From positions 1 to 38,010 of the forward strand of contig JAITPR010000061.1 of the NCBI GenBank assembly GCA_031289315.1: a stretch of DNA of 38,010 nucleotides. The letters are read 5' to 3'. This DNA is from Clostridiaceae bacterium. Its GTDB lineage: Bacteria; Bacillota; Clostridia; Christensenellales; CAG-917. The notes under the pieces are model-generated. The model was not told the origin of the DNA. It made no database searches and worked only from the letters and a program-made list of their open reading frames with translations. Every line of letters begins with the position of its first letter. Position 1 is the stretch's first letter. Position numbers and translations under genes: made by a program. Of this stretch, positions 21,594 through 32,659 are shown in pieces.

Positions 21594-22568
21594 ATGGATT
21601 TGGATTTTGATTTTACAGAGAAAGACAAAAAGATAACAATAACAGGATATAGAGATGACCCGAGTAAAGTGGTAATTCCCTCTGAAATAAACGGCATACC
21701 GGTAGTTTACATCGGAAGCGATATATTTAGAAAAACCCCCATGGTATTGGAAGTTACCATTCCCGACGGCGTGACGAGTATCGAAGAGAATGCGTTTAAA
21801 TCTCCCTATCTAACGCATATACGCGTGGACAGTCGTAATACCGCGTACAAGGATATAGACGGAGTACTGTTTAGCAAGGACGGTAAGCTGATAAAATATA
21901 TGGCGCGAAGGAACGCCACCGAGTATTCTATCCCCAGCGGCACGACGAGTATAGGGAATAACGCATTTTATGAGTGCAAGAGTTTGACGAAGATAAAAAT
22001 CCCGAAGGGCGTTACCGATATCGGAGTGGATGCGTTTCGCAGGTGCGCTAATTTGACGAAGATAGAATTTCCTGCCAACGAGATAAGCATCGGAGTACAG
22101 GCATTTAGAGAGTGTGGACGTTTGGCGGATATAGAATTCCTTGCCAGTGTGCCGAGTATCGGAGTGCAGGCATTTTGTGGATGTAGTAATTTAACGGATA
22201 TAGAATTCCTTGCCAGTGTGAGTATCGGAGTACAGGCATTTTATAATTGTAGCAATTTAAAGGAGATAAAGTTCAATGCCGGTGCGTCTAATATCGGAGA
22301 GCAAGCATTTTATAATTGTAACAATTTAAAGGAGATAAAAATCCCGGAAGGCGTGACGAGTATTGAGCAAAATGCATTTTGTAATTGTAACAATTTGACG
22401 TCTGTGCAAATTCCGTGTAGTGTGACGCATATCAAGAATCGGGCATTTTATTGTTGCGGAGCAATCAAACGTGTACATTATAACGGTTCAAAGAAAGAGT
22501 GGTACAATATAGAGATAGGCGACGACAACCTAGATTTGCTGAAAGTGCAGAGAACTTACGGTCGCTAA
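21594..22568 (+). CDS. BspA-type leucine-rich repeat protein (copy 1)
   Basis: This 324-residue protein is built of LRR_5/TpLRR repeats of 22-23 residues with the pattern IPxGVTSIGxxAFxxCxxLxxI. At least nine units run from about residue 50 to 295. Some are degenerate, such as FLASVPSIGVQAFCGCSNL. The N-terminal 45 residues (KKITITGYRDDPSKVVIPSE) and C-terminal cap (VHYNGSKKEWYNIEIGDDNL) are shared with copy 2. BspA proteins often mediate surface or host binding, but no signal peptide, anchor or membrane segment is present here, so it may stay cytosolic or use another route. The ribosome binding site GGAGG is strong. Base composition is AT-richer than in neighbouring genes, suggesting recent acquisition. 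Confidence 0.88.
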   Translation: MDLDFDFTEKDKKITITGYRDDPSKVVIPSEINGIPVVYIGSDIFRKTPMVLEVTIPDGVTSIEENAFKSPYLTHIRVDSRNTAYKDIDGVLFSKDGKLIKYMARRNATEYSIPSGTTSIGNNAFYECKSLTKIKIPKGVTDIGVDAFRRCANLTKIEFPANEISIGVQAFRECGRLADIEFLASVPSIGVQAFCGCSNLTDIEFLASVSIGVQAFYNCSNLKEIKFNAGASNIGEQAFYNCNNLKEIKIPEGVTSIEQNAFCNCNNLTSVQIPCSVTHIKNRAFYCCGAIKRVHYNGSKKEWYNIEIGDDNLDLLKVQRTYGR

Positions 22569-22789: not shown

Positions 22790-23620
22790 ATGAACTTTCA
22801 GTTTGAAGAAAAGAATGGCAAGATAACAATAACGGAATACAGAGATGACCCGATCAATGTGTTAATTCCCTCTAAAGTAAACGGCATGCCGGTAGTTTGC
22901 ATAGGAAGCGATATATTTAGAAAAAATCCCAATGTATTGGAAGTTACCATTCCCGACAGCGTGACGAGTATAGCCAATGATACTTTCAGTGAGTGTCCTT
23001 ATCTAACGCATATACGTGTGGACAGCGGTAATAAAGTGTACAAGGATATCGACGGAGTGCTGTTTAGCAAGGACGGCAAGTTGCTAAAATATATGGCGCC
23101 AAGGAATGCTATAGAGTATTCTATCCCCAGCGGCACGACGAGTATCGGGGATAATGCGTTTTTCGGGTGCAAAAGTTTGACAAAGATAAAAATTCCGCAG
23201 GGCGTAACCAGTATCGGAGATTATGCATTTTACGAGTGCAGTATTTTACAAACCGTGAAAACTTCTAACGGCTTGATTAGTATCGGTAGTTATGCTTTTA
23301 GAAGAAGCGGGTTGATTGAAATAGAAATTCCCGACGGCGTGACTAGTATAAAGGAGCATGCATTTGAGGATTGCAAGAGGTTGACGAAAATAAACATTCC
23401 GGAGGGCGTGACTAATATTGAAGATTTGACATTTGACTGTTGCTGTAGTTTGGAGGATATAGTAATCTCGTGTAGTGTAACGCATATAGGAAAGGCATTT
23501 AATAGTTGTAGCCAAATCAACCATGTACATTATAACGGTTCAAAAGAAGAGTGGTACAATATAGATATAGAAAAAGGCAATCTAAACTTGTTGAAAGCGC
23601 AGAGAACCTACGGTAAATAA
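22790..23620 (+). CDS. BspA-type leucine-rich repeat protein (copy 2)
   Basis: This is a 276-residue paralog of the preceding LRR protein. The first ~150 residues are very similar (for example VVCIGSDIFRKNPNVLEVTI and VDSGNKVYKDIDGVLFSKDG). The middle repeats differ, and there are about two fewer units. The C-terminal cap (VHYNGSKEEWYNIDIEKGNL) is kept. No signal peptide is seen. The Shine-Dalgarno is weak (ATAGGTAAA). It probably arose by duplication, and the changed repeat number suggests slippage or recombination between repeats, as is common in this family. Confidence 0.86.
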   Translation: MNFQFEEKNGKITITEYRDDPINVLIPSKVNGMPVVCIGSDIFRKNPNVLEVTIPDSVTSIANDTFSECPYLTHIRVDSGNKVYKDIDGVLFSKDGKLLKYMAPRNAIEYSIPSGTTSIGDNAFFGCKSLTKIKIPQGVTSIGDYAFYECSILQTVKTSNGLISIGSYAFRRSGLIEIEIPDGVTSIKEHAFEDCKRLTKINIPEGVTNIEDLTFDCCCSLEDIVISCSVTHIGKAFNSCSQINHVHYNGSKEEWYNIDIEKGNLNLLKAQRTYGK

Positions 23621-24538: not shown

Positions 24539-26296
24539 TTACACGCAGTCTTCGTCTTGGAGGGCGTCATAGCCTTCTTCGCCGGTGCGGATTTTGACGA
24601 TGTTTTCGACGTCGTAGACGAAGATTTTGCCGTCGCCGAAGTTACCGGTACGGAGTACCTTGTTGGCGGTTTCGACTACGAGGGAGACGGGAACCTTACA
24701 TACGACGAGGTCGACTTGCACTTTGGGCAAGAGATTTACATCGACTTCGGCGCCGCGGTAGTGTTCGACGTGACCCTTTTGCATACCGCAGCCCATGACA
24801 TTGGTAACCGTCATGCCGGTGATACCGATAGAATTGAGCGCGATTTTGAGTTCTTCAAACTTAGAGAGTTTGGTAATAATGGACACCTTCGTGAACTTAT
24901 TCTTATCGACGTCGGCGGGTGATACGACTTCGGCATCGGGAGCGTCGCCGGTATCGGCTTCGTTAACTGCGGGGGTGACGGGTTTAGCTGGTGCGTCGTA
25001 GATAAGCCCTTCGCCGTATGTAACGGGGGTAGATACGATTTCAATACCGTCGCTGGTAATGGGCGCGGCGGCAAAGCCGGCGAACGCGGTAGCAAGCCCG
25101 TGCTCGGAGATGTCAAGACCTGCCAGTTCTTCGGTGCGTGACACGCGGAGACCAACGGTTTTCTTAATGAGCAGGAACAGCCCTATCATGACGACGGCTA
25201 CATAAACGGCTACCACAAGTACGCCTAGAATTTGCACGCCGAAAAGCTTTCCGCCACCGCCGTAGAACAGACCGCCGTTGTCTTTAGTGGCGAACAGACC
25301 GACCATAATGGTACCGAACGCGCCGCAAACGCCGTGGACGGATATTGCGCCGACGGGGTCGTCGATTTTGAGTTTTTTATCGAAGAATTCGACGGCGAAC
25401 ACGACGAGGACACCGGCTAGCAATCCGATTATGAAGGCGCCGAACGGGTCTACGACGTCCGCACCGGCGGTTATTGCCACAAGACCGGCAAGCGCGCCGT
25501 TGAAGGTCATGGACACGTCGGGCTTTTTGTATTTAATCCAAGTAACGACCATTGCGGCGATAGCTGCTGCTGCTGCTGCAAGGTTAGTGGTGACGAAAAC
25601 GGAGGACATGGAGAGTATAGCTCCGTCGCCGTCCGCGCCCAGTGTGGAGCCGCCGTTGAAGCCGAACCAGCCGAACCATAAGATGAACACGCCCAATGCA
25701 ACCATTGCCATGTTATGACCCAATATAGCCTTAGGCTTGCCGTCTTTTCCGTACTTACCGATACGGGGTCCGAGTATTTTGGAGCCGATGAGCGCCGCAA
25801 CGCCGCCGACCATGTGGACTACCGTGGAACCGGCAAAGTCGTGGAAGCCTAGCTGTGCGAGCCAGCCGCCGCCCCAAATCCAGTGACCCGATATGGGGTA
25901 TACGACGAGGGAAATGCCGGCGCTGTAAATGATGTATCCGATGAACTTAGTGCGTTCCGCCATTGCGCCGGAGACGATGGTGGCGGCTGTCGCGCAGAAC
26001 ACGGTTTGGAAGATAAGGAACGCCATGGAGGGGTATCCGGCAGCGTAGTTATCCTTGAGAGCAAAGAAATCGGGCGTGCCTATGACGCCTCCCAGAGAGG
26101 TTCCGAACATGAGTCCGAAGCCGAAGAACCAGAAGAGGACGGTGCCGATAGCAAAGTCCATGAGGTTCTTCATGATGATGTTTCCGGTGTTTTTCGCGCG
26201 GGTAAGACCTGCTTCGACCATTGCGAAGCCGGCTTGCATGAAGAACACCAGAGCGGCGGCGATTAGCAGCCAAATTGTGTCTGCCGATGAGTACAT
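24539..26296 (-). CDS. amt: ammonium transporter fused to a PII signal domain
   Basis: Residues about 1-400 are an Amt/Mep/Rh channel. The N-terminus is MYSSADTIWLLIAAALVFFM with about eleven hydrophobic helices, including AGFAMVEAGLTRAKN, GAMAERTKF, STVVHMVGGVAALIGS and ISVHGVCGAFGTIMVG with the pore histidines. After a Pro/Asp-rich linker (about 425-468), residues 470-575 form a complete PII (GlnB/GlnK) domain: SIGITGMTVTNVMGCG, T-loop QKGHVEHYRGAE, LPKVQVDLVV and B-loop GDGKIFVYDVENIVKIRTGEE. The tyrosine that is uridylylated in enteric PII (Tyr51) is Val518 here. It therefore probably senses nucleotides/2-oxoglutarate and gates its own channel. The ATG has AAGGAGAT upstream; glnN is the upstream gene on the same strand. 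Confidence 0.95.
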   Translation of the reverse strand: MYSSADTIWLLIAAALVFFMQAGFAMVEAGLTRAKNTGNIIMKNLMDFAIGTVLFWFFGFGLMFGTSLGGVIGTPDFFALKDNYAAGYPSMAFLIFQTVFCATAATIVSGAMAERTKFIGYIIYSAGISLVVYPISGHWIWGGGWLAQLGFHDFAGSTVVHMVGGVAALIGSKILGPRIGKYGKDGKPKAILGHNMAMVALGVFILWFGWFGFNGGSTLGADGDGAILSMSSVFVTTNLAAAAAAIAAMVVTWIKYKKPDVSMTFNGALAGLVAITAGADVVDPFGAFIIGLLAGVLVVFAVEFFDKKLKIDDPVGAISVHGVCGAFGTIMVGLFATKDNGGLFYGGGGKLFGVQILGVLVVAVYVAVVMIGLFLLIKKTVGLRVSRTEELAGLDISEHGLATAFAGFAAAPITSDGIEIVSTPVTYGEGLIYDAPAKPVTPAVNEADTGDAPDAEVVSPADVDKNKFTKVSIITKLSKFEELKIALNSIGITGMTVTNVMGCGMQKGHVEHYRGAEVDVNLLPKVQVDLVVCKVPVSLVVETANKVLRTGNFGDGKIFVYDVENIVKIRTGEEGYDALQDEDCV

Positions 26297-29375: not shown

Positions 29376-29391
29376 TCTGCGCAAAGGTCCG

Positions 29392-29587
29392 GTGGACAAA
29401 GGTGGATGCGCGATTGTCCACGTAAATAGGGTCTTTCATGGGTGAATGTGGACAATTTTATATGGCGCAAACAATTTGTGTTTTCGAAGACATAAATTCG
29501 TGGCATTTTGTCAAAGTTTTCGCAAAAAAGTGGCATAAATGAGGAGTTGTCCACAAATGCGTCCACATTTAGGGATAGTTGTCCACC
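29392..29587. other. cluster of six TTGTCCAC-type (DnaA-box-like) nonamers
   Basis: GTGGACAAA at 29392, ATTGTCCACG at 29413, TGTGGACAA at 29448, TTGTCCACA at 29547, GCGTCCACA at 29559 and TTGTCCACC at 29579, on both strands. An A/T-rich block (29625-29710) follows, then the mraZ promoter. The motif differs by one base from the DnaA box TTATCCACA. It may be a DnaA-binding region, a promoter control region for the dcw cluster, or the binding site of another protein. Confidence 0.45.
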
Positions 29588-29708
29588 TAAATTCATTTTA
29601 AATATGCAGAATTCATTTCGCTGACTAATTCAAAAAAAAGAGGAAAAAACCAATAAAAAAGCTCATTTTCGGGTTTAAAAATAATTCGTATTTTTTTTGT
29701 TTTTACCC

Positions 29709-29737
29709 TTGACATTTATTCGTGACTGGGGTATGAT
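29709..29737 (+). promoter_or_regulatory. sigma-A promoter of the dcw cluster
   Basis: TTGACA, a 17-base spacer and TATGAT, ending about 107 bp upstream of the mraZ ATG. The spacer contains GACTGGGG, and one TGGG-type element could be a MraZ contact, but no repeated array of such elements is visible. Confidence 0.8.
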
Positions 29738-29844: not shown

Positions 29845-31050
29845 ATGTTAGGACGATTGGGAATTGAAAGCGTAAACGCCGAAAGTGTGGGAGGAATACC
29901 CCACACTCTTGACGATAAAATGCGCACTAGAATACCGCCCTTGTATAGAAGCTTCGTCAATCCTATGAACGGACAGGTAATCATGAAGCTTACCTTGTCC
30001 GCCAGTATTGAGTTACTTCCTTACGCTAAATTTTGTGAAATCATAAATGTGATTAACAGCATACCGGAGTACGATACGGAGGCTCAACAGGCGGCGCGTG
30101 CAACGCTTGAGCGTATTAAGACCGCCAGAGAGGATGTGCAAGGTCGTTTCGTTATAGACCGCGACCTCGCAAAAAAAGCCGGAATAAATAAAAACATAAT
30201 CTTTACGTCCTCCGGTGAAAGAGTGGAAATTTGGGCGGCGGAAAACTACGGCGAAAATTTTGGCGCCGCGCTGACCAACAAGGAATATAAAGAGCTTTAC
30301 TTAAACACCATGACGCCTTATTTGAAGGTGGCTAAGAAGGTGGAAGCACCGGCTCAACAACCGGTTCAACAACCCGTGGTGTCACAGACATATTATTATC
30401 CGCAGGCTCCGTTGCAATACTACGGTTACAACCCGTACATGCAACAACCATACCCGCCGCAACCGTATCCGCAACAGCCGTATATGCAACAGCCGTACGC
30501 GCCGCAAATACCACTACAAGGGCAACCGATATTCGGAGCGGCTCCCGTACCCTCGCAGGAAGAAAACAACGCGCAAGCGCCGAAACAAGACGGCGACGGC
30601 GTGCAAACACCGCAACAGTTGCAAATGCAACAGTTGCAATCGCAACCATACTACGGCGTGCAACCGTTTGCACCGCAAGGACAACAGCAACCATACTACG
30701 GCGTGCAACCGTTTGCACCGCAAGGACAACCGCAACCGTACTACGGCGCACAACAATTTGTTCCGCAAGGGCAACAACAGCAAGGACAACCGCAACCGTA
30801 TTACGGTGCGCAACAATACGCTCCGCAAGGACAGCCGCAGCAATACATGCCGCAAGGACAAATTATTATGCCGTACACTACTTTATTTGCACCGGAACCG
30901 CAACAAACACAACAAGGCACGCCGTCCGTAACTCCTTTGGTGGCGCAACCCTTTCCGATATACGGCGCGGCTGCGGCATACGCCGCCGTTACGGAACGCC
31001 CGTTTCCGATTTTTCCCGCACATAACGACGGAGGAAACGGCGACAAATAA
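29845..31050 (+). CDS. mraZ: MraZ transcriptional regulator with Gln/Pro/Tyr-rich tail
   Basis: MraZ is the DNA-binding regulator that opens the division and cell-wall cluster. Two SpoVT/AbrB-like halves are visible: PHTLDDKMRTRIPPLYRSF (about 19-37) and VQGRFVIDRDLAKKAGINK (about 98-116), followed by NIIFTSSGERVEIWAAENY, the classic MraZ end. In the first half the usual DxKGR is DDKMR. MraZ is normally about 145 residues; this protein has 401. From about 168 it is low-complexity, rich in Gln, Pro and Tyr (QPYPPQPYPQQPYMQQPY), with four copies of QPYYGxQPFAPQG-type units at about 270-335. The tail resembles prion-like or phase-separating sequence. The position before rsmH supports the identity. 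The ribosome binding site is GAAGCGGAG. Confidence 0.88.
   Translation: MLGRLGIESVNAESVGGIPHTLDDKMRTRIPPLYRSFVNPMNGQVIMKLTLSASIELLPYAKFCEIINVINSIPEYDTEAQQAARATLERIKTAREDVQGRFVIDRDLAKKAGINKNIIFTSSGERVEIWAAENYGENFGAALTNKEYKELYLNTMTPYLKVAKKVEAPAQQPVQQPVVSQTYYYPQAPLQYYGYNPYMQQPYPPQPYPQQPYMQQPYAPQIPLQGQPIFGAAPVPSQEENNAQAPKQDGDGVQTPQQLQMQQLQSQPYYGVQPFAPQGQQQPYYGVQPFAPQGQPQPYYGAQQFVPQGQQQQGQPQPYYGAQQYAPQGQPQQYMPQGQIIMPYTTLFAPEPQQTQQGTPSVTPLVAQPFPIYGAAAAYAAVTERPFPIFPAHNDGGNGDK
30640..30850 (+). repeat. in-frame repeats in the mraZ tail
   Basis: CAACCATACTACGGCGTGCA and variants begin near 30644, 30689, 30734 and 30788, encoding QPYYG(V/A)Q followed by FAPQGQ or YAPQGQ. Unit length is 45-54 bp, always a multiple of three. 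CAA/CAG and CCG codons dominate. Confidence 0.9.
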
Positions 31051-31065
31051 GCCGATTTTTGACCT

Positions 31066-32004
31066 ATGCCGGAATTTTTTCACATGCCCGTAATGCCTAA
31101 GGAGGTTATCTCCGGGCTGAACATAAAAAGTGACGGCGTTTACTTTGACGGGACGTTGGGCTACGCGGGACATGCATTTCAAATAGTCGAGCGTCTTACC
31201 GGCGGGGGAAGATTGATTGCCACCGACAAGGATTCCGAAGCGATAGCGGCGGCGACGAAACGGTTGTCGGGCTATAGCGACAGAGTTACGATTGTCAATT
31301 CGGACTTTAAAAACGCCGCTTCCATACTGGACGGTTTGGGCATTTCCGGATTGGACGGAGTGCTACTGGATTTGGGAATATCCTCACCTCAAATAGATAA
31401 TTTTGAGAGGGGCTTCTCTTATATGCAGGACGCACGGCTGGATATGCGGATGTGCCGCGAACAGTATTTGACGGCTTACCACATCGTAAACGAGTATTCC
31501 GCGGGCGCGCTGACACGTATTTTTGATGAGTACGGAGAGGAAAAGCTGGCGCGGAGAATTGCCGAAAGAATTGTAAAGGAACGCGAAAAGGCGCCCATAG
31601 AAACGACGCTTCAGCTGTCGTCGATAGTGGAGAACGCTTACCCGGCGGCGACACGTTGGAAATTCGGACACCCTGCAAAACGCGTATTTCAAAGTTTGCG
31701 TATAGAGACTAATTCCGAGCTAACCGGACTCTCCGAAACCATAGCGGAACTGATACGTCGGCTGAATAAAAACGGACGCATAGCCGTCATAAGTTTCCAT
31801 TCCTTAGAAGACAAAATTACTAAGCATTGCTTCAAGGATTTTGAAATCGGCTGTATTTGTCCCAAAAATTTTCCGCAGTGCGTCTGCGGTCATAAAAAAG
31901 AAATAGAAATTCTGACAAAGAAGCCCTTGACGGCTTCGGAAGAGGAGTTGAAGGAAAACGGCAGGGCGGCAAGCGCAAAGCTTCGCATAGCCGAAAAGCT
32001 GTGA
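31066..32004 (+). CDS. rsmH: 16S rRNA cytosine-N4 methyltransferase RsmH
   Basis: RsmH (MraW) methylates N4 of C1402-type cytosine of 16S rRNA using S-adenosylmethionine. The N-terminus FHMPVMPKEVISGLNIKSDG and the SAM loop YFDGTLGYAGHA (about 26-37) fit. Also visible are ATDKDSEAI, VLLDLGISSPQID, FERGFSYMQDARLDMRM, HPAKRVFQSLRIETN and FHSLEDKITKHCF. The length of 312 residues is normal. The start lies 15 bp after mraZ without a clear ribosome binding site, so coupled translation is likely. Near the C-terminus the Cys cluster CICPKNFPQCVCG is a normal feature of the family. Confidence 0.97.
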   Translation: MPEFFHMPVMPKEVISGLNIKSDGVYFDGTLGYAGHAFQIVERLTGGGRLIATDKDSEAIAAATKRLSGYSDRVTIVNSDFKNAASILDGLGISGLDGVLLDLGISSPQIDNFERGFSYMQDARLDMRMCREQYLTAYHIVNEYSAGALTRIFDEYGEEKLARRIAERIVKEREKAPIETTLQLSSIVENAYPAATRWKFGHPAKRVFQSLRIETNSELTGLSETIAELIRRLNKNGRIAVISFHSLEDKITKHCFKDFEIGCICPKNFPQCVCGHKKEIEILTKKPLTASEEELKENGRAASAKLRIAEKL

Positions 32005-32134
32005 CAAAATTAAAGAAACTGGAAGTCGTAAGTTTAGTAGTGCGGATTAAACCGCCGAAACGATGCAGACGGCTTATAGCAACCACGGAAGACCCGGCTG
32101 TTGTCGGAAAATAAGCGCAAAGCGGAGGCGTGTT

Positions 32135-32659
32135 ATGAACAACGGAAAAAGATTACCCTTAAACAACCAAAATAACTCCGGTAAGTCAACGAACAAGAGC
32201 GCCGACGCTTATGATTCCGCAGTAATAAAAAGTAAAGCGGAAGAAAAACGCCTAGCGGAAGCAAAGCGTATAGTGGACAGGCGTATGCTTGAAGCCAAAC
32301 GTATAGAAGAGGCTAATCGTATGGCGTATGACGCCGACCGTGCAGCGGAAGCTAACCGTCGTGCGGAGGCCAACCGTAGAGCGGAGGTTAACCGTGCGGA
32401 AGCTAGCCGTAGAGCGGAGGTTAACCGTAAAGCGGAAGCCAACCGTGTGGCGGAGGTTAGCCGCCGTGCAGATGAAGCCCTACGGGCTTCGGTGGCACAA
32501 AATAAGGCGATAGTCGCCGCCAATCCCGATAAGCCAAGGTTTATTTGGGAAAACGAGGACGCCGGCGTACGGTGCGAAACAATCATCGAGTCCGGCACGA
32601 TTGAGGACGTCAAGAGCGCGAAGATTAAGATGCATTTCTTAGTGAACGTGATAACTTAA
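32135..32659 (+). CDS. Ala/Glu/Arg-rich helical protein in the ftsL position, unknown
   Basis: I do not recognise this 174-residue protein. The ATG at 32135 has a good Shine-Dalgarno (GCGGAGG); an in-frame ATG at 32063 does not. Residues about 30-130 are a repetitive charged helix of 5-8 residue units (RRAEANRRAEVNRAEASRRA), encoded by GCGGAGGTTAACCGT-like DNA repeats. The C-terminal ~45 residues (PRFIWENEDAGVRCETIIES) look folded. No membrane segment is present, so despite lying where ftsL usually is, it does not look like FtsL. Other possibilities are a cytosolic scaffold or an extended division-cluster protein. The DNA-level repetition suggests expansion. Confidence 0.65.
   Translation: MNNGKRLPLNNQNNSGKSTNKSADAYDSAVIKSKAEEKRLAEAKRIVDRRMLEAKRIEEANRMAYDADRAAEANRRAEANRRAEVNRAEASRRAEVNRKAEANRVAEVSRRADEALRASVAQNKAIVAANPDKPRFIWENEDAGVRCETIIESGTIEDVKSAKIKMHFLVNVIT

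Follow-up and report, generated by a model that had tools for sequence, protein, structure and literature searches.

MraZ is a widespread bacterial regulator, and its homologues form rings. The MraZ chains of Mycoplasma pneumoniae and M. genitalium (1n0e, 9qlg, 9r4j, and 9sz7) are 160 to 166 aa long, too short for a tail of the kind described here. The M. genitalium mraZ promoter is reported to carry AAAGTG[T/G] repeats (PMC8475190). A low-complexity stretch on a conserved transcription factor is reported for Clostridium botulinum Rho, which terminates transcription and has a prion-like domain (PMC4703818 and PMC6400439). Like the protein described below, Rho has a low-complexity stretch whose evolutionary coverage is low. 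However, the MraZ tail is rich in proline and tyrosine and poor in asparagine.

The window that we analyzed is an entire contig of 38,010 bases from a draft Clostridiaceae assembly (63 contigs, 89.6% complete). Its mraZ is the first gene of the dcw cluster, ahead of rsmH, with a gap of 15 nt between the mraZ stop and rsmH and a normal dcw order (Table 1). The encoded protein has 401 residues. The original prediction held that no MraZ of this kind had been described, and a literature search of open-licence PMC papers showed none among the papers listed.

Table 1. Features of the mraZ region, in window positions
Feature	Position	Strand	Basis or remark
Cluster of GTGGAC/GTCCAC words, both orientations, candidate distal operator	29392..29586	.	
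AGGGA-N7-CCAC element, 138 nt before the -35	29571..29586	+	Upstream of mraZ in six relatives too
Promoter-like site TTGACA-17-TATGAT (11/12), without GTGG boxes at the -35	29709..29737	+	
mraZ with C-terminal extension	29845..31050	+	401 aa, ATG start, stop included, single frame
MraZ core, residues 16-140	29890..30264	+	
First DxxxR motif, DDKMR, residues 23-27	29911..29925	+	Met where N/G usual
Second DxxxR motif, DVQGR, residues 97-101	30133..30147	+	
Predicted C-terminal helix, residues 146-164	30280..30336	+	Approximate end point of relatives
Q/P/Y-rich low-complexity tail, residues 165-401 (237 aa)	30337..31047	+	Composition; pLDDT
Five 15-bp units, NPYMQ/QPYPP/QPYPQ/QPYMQ/QPYAP	30430..30504	+	TRF and unit comparison
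45-bp repeat unit 1, QPYYGVQPFAPQGQQ	30643..30687	+	
45-bp repeat unit 2	30688..30732	+	
45-bp repeat unit 3	30733..30777	+	
45-bp repeat unit 4	30793..30837	+	
rsmH (mraW)	31066..32004	+	TIGR00006, 353 bits
FtsL-position protein, with 208 aa of Tyr/Arg-rich sequence ahead of a single predicted transmembrane segment	33109..33966	+	

The MraZ core and its C-terminal tail

A family HMM search with TIGR00242 matched the 401-aa protein at 48 bits (E value of 1.1e-12), below the cutoff of 98.35, and in a Pfam search of the same protein the MraZ family matched the second repeat only (20.9 bits versus 23). Just 1 of 43 genomes of the same taxonomic family passes the TIGR00242 cutoff, so the low score is a family-wide shortfall. 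D23-R27 and D97-R101 are invariant in alignments with 29 and with 65 relatives, and the protein keeps D23, K25, R27, P31, D97, R101, E128, and W130. When the monomer structure was predicted, the core took a MraZ fold with high confidence. We conclude that the protein carries a real MraZ part, divergent but complete, with a predicted fold. The family match, the alignment, and the predicted fold bear out the original view of a MraZ that continues into a long Gln/Pro/Tyr repeat tail. No second MraZ gene was found in the same draft genome. The database gene call for this protein (P0001) starts at Met41 and has 361 aa. We rejected that start because it would delete the first DNA-binding repeat (29845-29964), which aligns with relatives. 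Met41 is therefore probably a wrong start, and we kept the start at 29845.

Residue 26, in the loop of the first motif, is Met. The original prediction had correctly read KMR there but took KGR as the usual form, whereas either N or G normally stands at that residue, N being the commonest. A motif search of 232 fetched proteins for the first D-x-K-x-R found N at the variable residue in 146, G in 78, K in 4, H in 1, and M in none. Three had no motif, one of them the window's own database record with its shortened N terminus. Met was at this position in none of the 231 other fetched MraZ proteins. Alignments gave G in 19, N in 8, D in 1, and S in 1 of 29 same-order relatives and N in 35, G in 29, and H in 1 of 65 database relatives. 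Met at residue 26 is unusual, yet G cannot be called the standard residue.

The tail, at 237 aa slightly longer than the 230 residues first proposed, consists mainly of Q (59 residues, 25%), P (44, 19%), Y (24, 10%), A (22, 9%), and G (20, 8%), with 2% asparagine. It contains 32 aromatics and 13 charged residues, 9 acidic and 4 basic (K and R, including a single Arg). Block means of pLDDT are 47 to 78 for residues 171 to 200 and 38 to 53 from residue 201 onward. By the FoldIndex formula, the tail scores -0.069 versus 0.159 for the core, with the last two 51-aa windows scoring as ordered (0.10 and 0.06). The tail is predicted to be disordered.

The tail contains two kinds of repeat, a 15-bp QPYxx unit in the first part and a 45-bp QPYYG...PQGQ unit in the second. 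TRF reported them as arrays at 30441-30497 (78% matches) and 30642-30776 (88% matches). QPYYG and PQGQ are retained in all four 45-bp units, and differences between units are mostly silent (pN of 0.089, pS of 0.493, and a ratio of 0.18), with none at codon position 1 in any pair. The five 15-bp units are less constrained (pN/pS of 0.43). Against a null that preserves the transition share, five unit pairs, which are not independent, gave p values of 0.045, 0.037, 0.019, 0.10, and 0.012. These comparisons lend modest support to a tail that is translated and whose protein sequence is under selection. Because no homologue examined carries the tail, the estimate draws on a few internal repeats.

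The tail among relatives and in its own genome

Normal-length MraZ proteins of the same family and order sit at the same operon position and are 24 to 32% identical to the window protein by alignment. They differ from it in having G, N, D, or S at residue 26, usually a tandem GTGG box upstream (see below), and a short C terminus. Only 26 to 46 residues follow the conserved E-x-W in 36 relatives, whereas 271 follow it here. Open frames are 149 to 221 aa in 34 other matching genomes of the family, compared with 427 aa for the window, and 132 to 293 aa in 141 others of a phylum sample. The search of the order matched 332 of 396 genomes, and frame lengths come from the stronger matches listed. Ten long-frame cases were fetched, with four more phylum frames of 201 to 205 aa left out. 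We rejected the ten as further tailed MraZ proteins, because at most 28 residues lie past the family match in nine and 63 in the tenth. That tenth (L099, same order) has a hydrophilic extension that is not rich in Q/P/Y and no tandem GTGG box upstream.

Database searches gave the same picture. MraZ is 132 to 180 residues long in 231 of the 232 fetched proteins, and the window's own protein was the only one longer than 180 aa among the best 120 of 1,830 and the best 120 of 218 matches. A search restricted to 220 to 702 aa, covering proteins that share words with the divergent window MraZ (332 candidates), also returned the window's own protein alone. Structural alignment gave no match bearing on the tail. 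A contig search added four distant loci with 29 to 36% identity (one from Salinimicrobium and three from Bacteroidota), which were left out of the comparisons.

Absence of the tail from close relatives had been named at the outset as an observation that would count against the prediction, and taken literally this is what we found, since no examined relative has it. However, the relatives searched all come from outside the genus of the window organism, and the most identical database protein among the matches listed (P0134) shares 42% identity across 74% of the core. For these reasons, the absence is better explained by a lineage-specific tail than by an error.

We also compared the tail with the rest of its genome, using a 299-kb sample (L050-L069) and 400 kb from 12 relatives. 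TRF coverage is 2.8% in the former and 0.86% in the latter, where single relatives range from 0.2 to 2.9% (highest in G004). Stretches of 80 aa with at least 35% Q+P+Y occur in 3 of 202 open reading frames (ORFs) of the genome's own sample, all three with membrane segments by eye, and in none of 349 ORFs of the relatives' sample. The MraZ tail reaches 69% over 80 aa, the richest among 233 ORFs of the own-genome sample and the window together. In two other proteins of this sample, a Q/P/Y stretch connects a zinc ribbon to a membrane segment (both assigned by eye), so in this genome such stretches serve as linkers too. Such zinc-ribbon membrane proteins (L053) resemble the tail in their low-complexity QPPYGG/QPYYG-type stretches, but theirs are short linkers in membrane proteins, whereas the MraZ tail is 237 aa long on a DNA-binding protein. 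From the TRF coverage and linker counts, repeat growth and Q/P/Y linkers are habits of this genome. Within the sample, the MraZ tail is the extreme of that habit. Elsewhere in the window, 21594-22568 and 22790-23620 each encode a leucine-rich-repeat protein of the BspA type, and 69-bp DNA repeats lie inside the former gene.

The upstream region and the dcw cluster

We scanned the 300 nt upstream of mraZ for a tandem GTGG-N6-GTGG box, on the plus strand and from chosen start codons. The window has none there at up to one mismatch. In the first 36 relatives, the box is exact in 20 and present at one mismatch in 34 (shuffles, 0.6% and 10%). Those 36 loci were returned for the best matches, and two of them (L036 and L037) are near-identical; 18 further matches had no locus, one of which (G036) entered by the order search. 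Ten further relatives, their loci originally fetched for frame length and three of them from the wider phylum, have the box exactly in 3, at one mismatch in 7, and not at all in 3. Combined, the box is exact in 23 of 46 relatives and present at one mismatch in 41. The five without it (L004, L009, L096, L098, and L099) are tail-less or short-tailed, so box loss is not tied to the tail in general. By a count from the listing, GTGG directly follows a TTG-type -35 in 21 of the first 36 relatives. These GTGG words agree with the AAAGTG[T/G] repeats described for Mollicutes (PMC8475190), whereas the tandem box is missing from the 300 nt upstream of this mraZ.

The promoter-like site of the window was found by a scan in which shuffles yield about as many sites. 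Upstream of it lies an AGGGA-N7-CCAC element that was spotted by eye before being searched for. It is at -274 of mraZ here, at -194 to -221 in five relatives, and at -333 in a sixth (L035), in which its spacing to a -35 does not fit. In the five (L003, L005, L007, L014, and L018), it stands 140, 141, 152, 162, and 143 nt from the TTG hexamer nearest the start. These six are the relatives out of 36 that have it near the promoter; L010 has another at -1497. Because the spacing to the -35 is 138 nt here and 140 to 162 nt in five relatives, the window promoter is likely homologous to theirs, with the GTGG boxes lost.

Farther upstream, GTGG/CCAC words are clustered. There are nine at 29380-29600 versus 1.9 expected, a number reached in none of 1,000 shuffles, although the cluster was noticed first and the statistics were done afterwards. 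Six are GTGGAC/GTCCAC within 220 bp, and none of 20 other own-genome stretches (299 kb) has more than two of these in such a span; counting plain GTGG/CCAC, 7 words per 220 bp are reached in three of the other stretches. The cluster includes an exact GTGG-N6-GTGG at 29392. Genome-wide, GTGG-N6-GTGGNNA is not clearly enriched (8 versus 5 in the control). The cluster may belong to another protein. DnaA boxes were considered for the GTGGAC words, and the dnaA locus (3.5 kb) has one TTATCCACA and one further TTATCCAC. No small RNA reached the gathering score in the region upstream of mraZ, and a weak CrcZ match there (15 of 95 bits) was taken as chance.

Downstream of mraZ, the cluster continues with rsmH, a repeat ORF, the FtsL-position gene, a gene for a spoVD-like, PASTA-containing penicillin-binding protein, and murE. 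The repeat ORF (32063-32659, 198 aa) has AEANRRAEVNR-type Ala/Glu/Arg repeats and no Pfam family, and no counterpart is listed at that place in the 13 relatives with an FtsL-position protein. Those 13 are among 15 relatives fetched (L106, L107, L109-L116, and L118-L120); L108 and L117 have no clear candidate. The part before the predicted transmembrane segment is 62 to 240 aa long in these counterparts, with 1 to 14% Y and 6 to 15% R. In the window protein, it has 208 aa, 13% R, and 8% Y. In the window protein and 4 of the 13 counterparts, the chain ends close to NWFDxxCD, and Pfam FtsL was passed by 1 of 9 FtsL-position proteins tested (L119, 26.8 over 22.9 bits). Outside the dcw cluster, 24539-26296 is a single 585-aa ORF for an ammonium transporter fused to a P-II regulatory domain, beside a type III glutamine synthetase.

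Proposed role of the tail and alternatives

The reading that we prefer, at roughly three chances in ten, is that this is a lineage-specific MraZ whose disordered Q/P/Y tail acts as a multivalent sticky brush, clustering MraZ on DNA. In this repeat-rich genome, the tail would have grown through tandem duplications and later been preserved by protein-level constraint. Its aromatics, in an almost uncharged Q/P background, could be stickers. If this MraZ forms rings, many tails would sit together on each, and ring-to-ring contacts through them might let MraZ act from scattered GTGG sites 120 to 320 bp upstream of the -35. These sites would stand in for the lost promoter-proximal box. The ring display of a phase-separating sequence in the original prediction is likewise an inference.

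It is quite possible, if not probable, that the tail is instead a tolerated repeat expansion without a role, in which slippage extended the 3' end of mraZ and left MraZ function unchanged. The high tandem-repeat coverage, the presence of the tail in one genome alone among those examined, and a MraZ domain that already ends in a variable region (as in L099) would all fit. However, the QPYYG and PQGQ kept in every 45-bp unit, with mostly silent differences and no first-position changes, argue for more than neutral growth; the 15-bp units are less constrained. We consider it rather unlikely that MraZ was released from autorepression, so that box loss, Met in the first loop, and a drifting protein left the tail as a by-product. 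The lack of a tandem box, a Met seen in no other fetched protein, and a promoter-like site matching at 11 of 12 positions speak for such a release, but the eight conserved residues are kept, the core is predicted with high confidence, unlike a decaying protein, and 5 of 46 relatives lack the box as well. An improbable alternative makes the tail a docking arm for the FtsL-position protein. It would bind that protein's Arg/Tyr-rich segment, which is probably cytoplasmic, and so would tether MraZ to the divisome and couple dcw transcription to division. The two genes are 2.1 kb apart in one cluster, and a Tyr/Phe-rich tail with one Arg would suit an Arg- and Tyr-rich partner. Against this, the complementarity is one of composition alone, and the FtsL-position protein also occurs in 13 relatives whose MraZ has no tail. 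Very unlikely, in our judgment, is a condensate regulator. Here MraZ, its promoter-proximal operator lost, would have acquired a Tyr-rich tail that gathers MraZ rings with the Arg/Tyr-rich cytoplasmic chain of the FtsL-position protein, whose gene lies three genes downstream. Transcription of dcw would then read out how much divisome has assembled.

There is a slim chance that the tail makes this division regulator a bacterial prion or amyloid switch comparable to C. botulinum Rho. Proline disfavors amyloid, and an amyloid prion is unlikely because the tail is 19% proline; it is also poor in asparagine. On the other side is the glutamine bias (59 Q in 237 residues versus a frequency of 0.05), whose P value of 8e-25, from a simple binomial rather than fLPS, lies beyond the fLPS threshold of 1e-10 reported for N/Q-rich sets (PMC6400439). 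The label prion-like in the original prediction suits this extreme bias but not the proline and asparagine contents. We give least credence to an error of assembly or gene calling that fused MraZ to a different coding sequence, a possibility that the original prediction had itself raised as fatal. The window is a whole contig of an incomplete draft, but the gene is one frame with no stop, the repeat differences are mostly silent, the operon spacing to rsmH and the dcw order are kept, and the genome yielded no second MraZ. A join of two genes was rejected on the first three of these points.

Beyond the proposed clustering of MraZ by its tail, the Tyr/Arg-rich FtsL-position protein, with its counterparts in 13 relatives, gives the dcw cluster another low-complexity component. 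A tailed MraZ with a rearranged promoter offers a natural test of whether a disordered tail can alter a ring-forming bacterial repressor.
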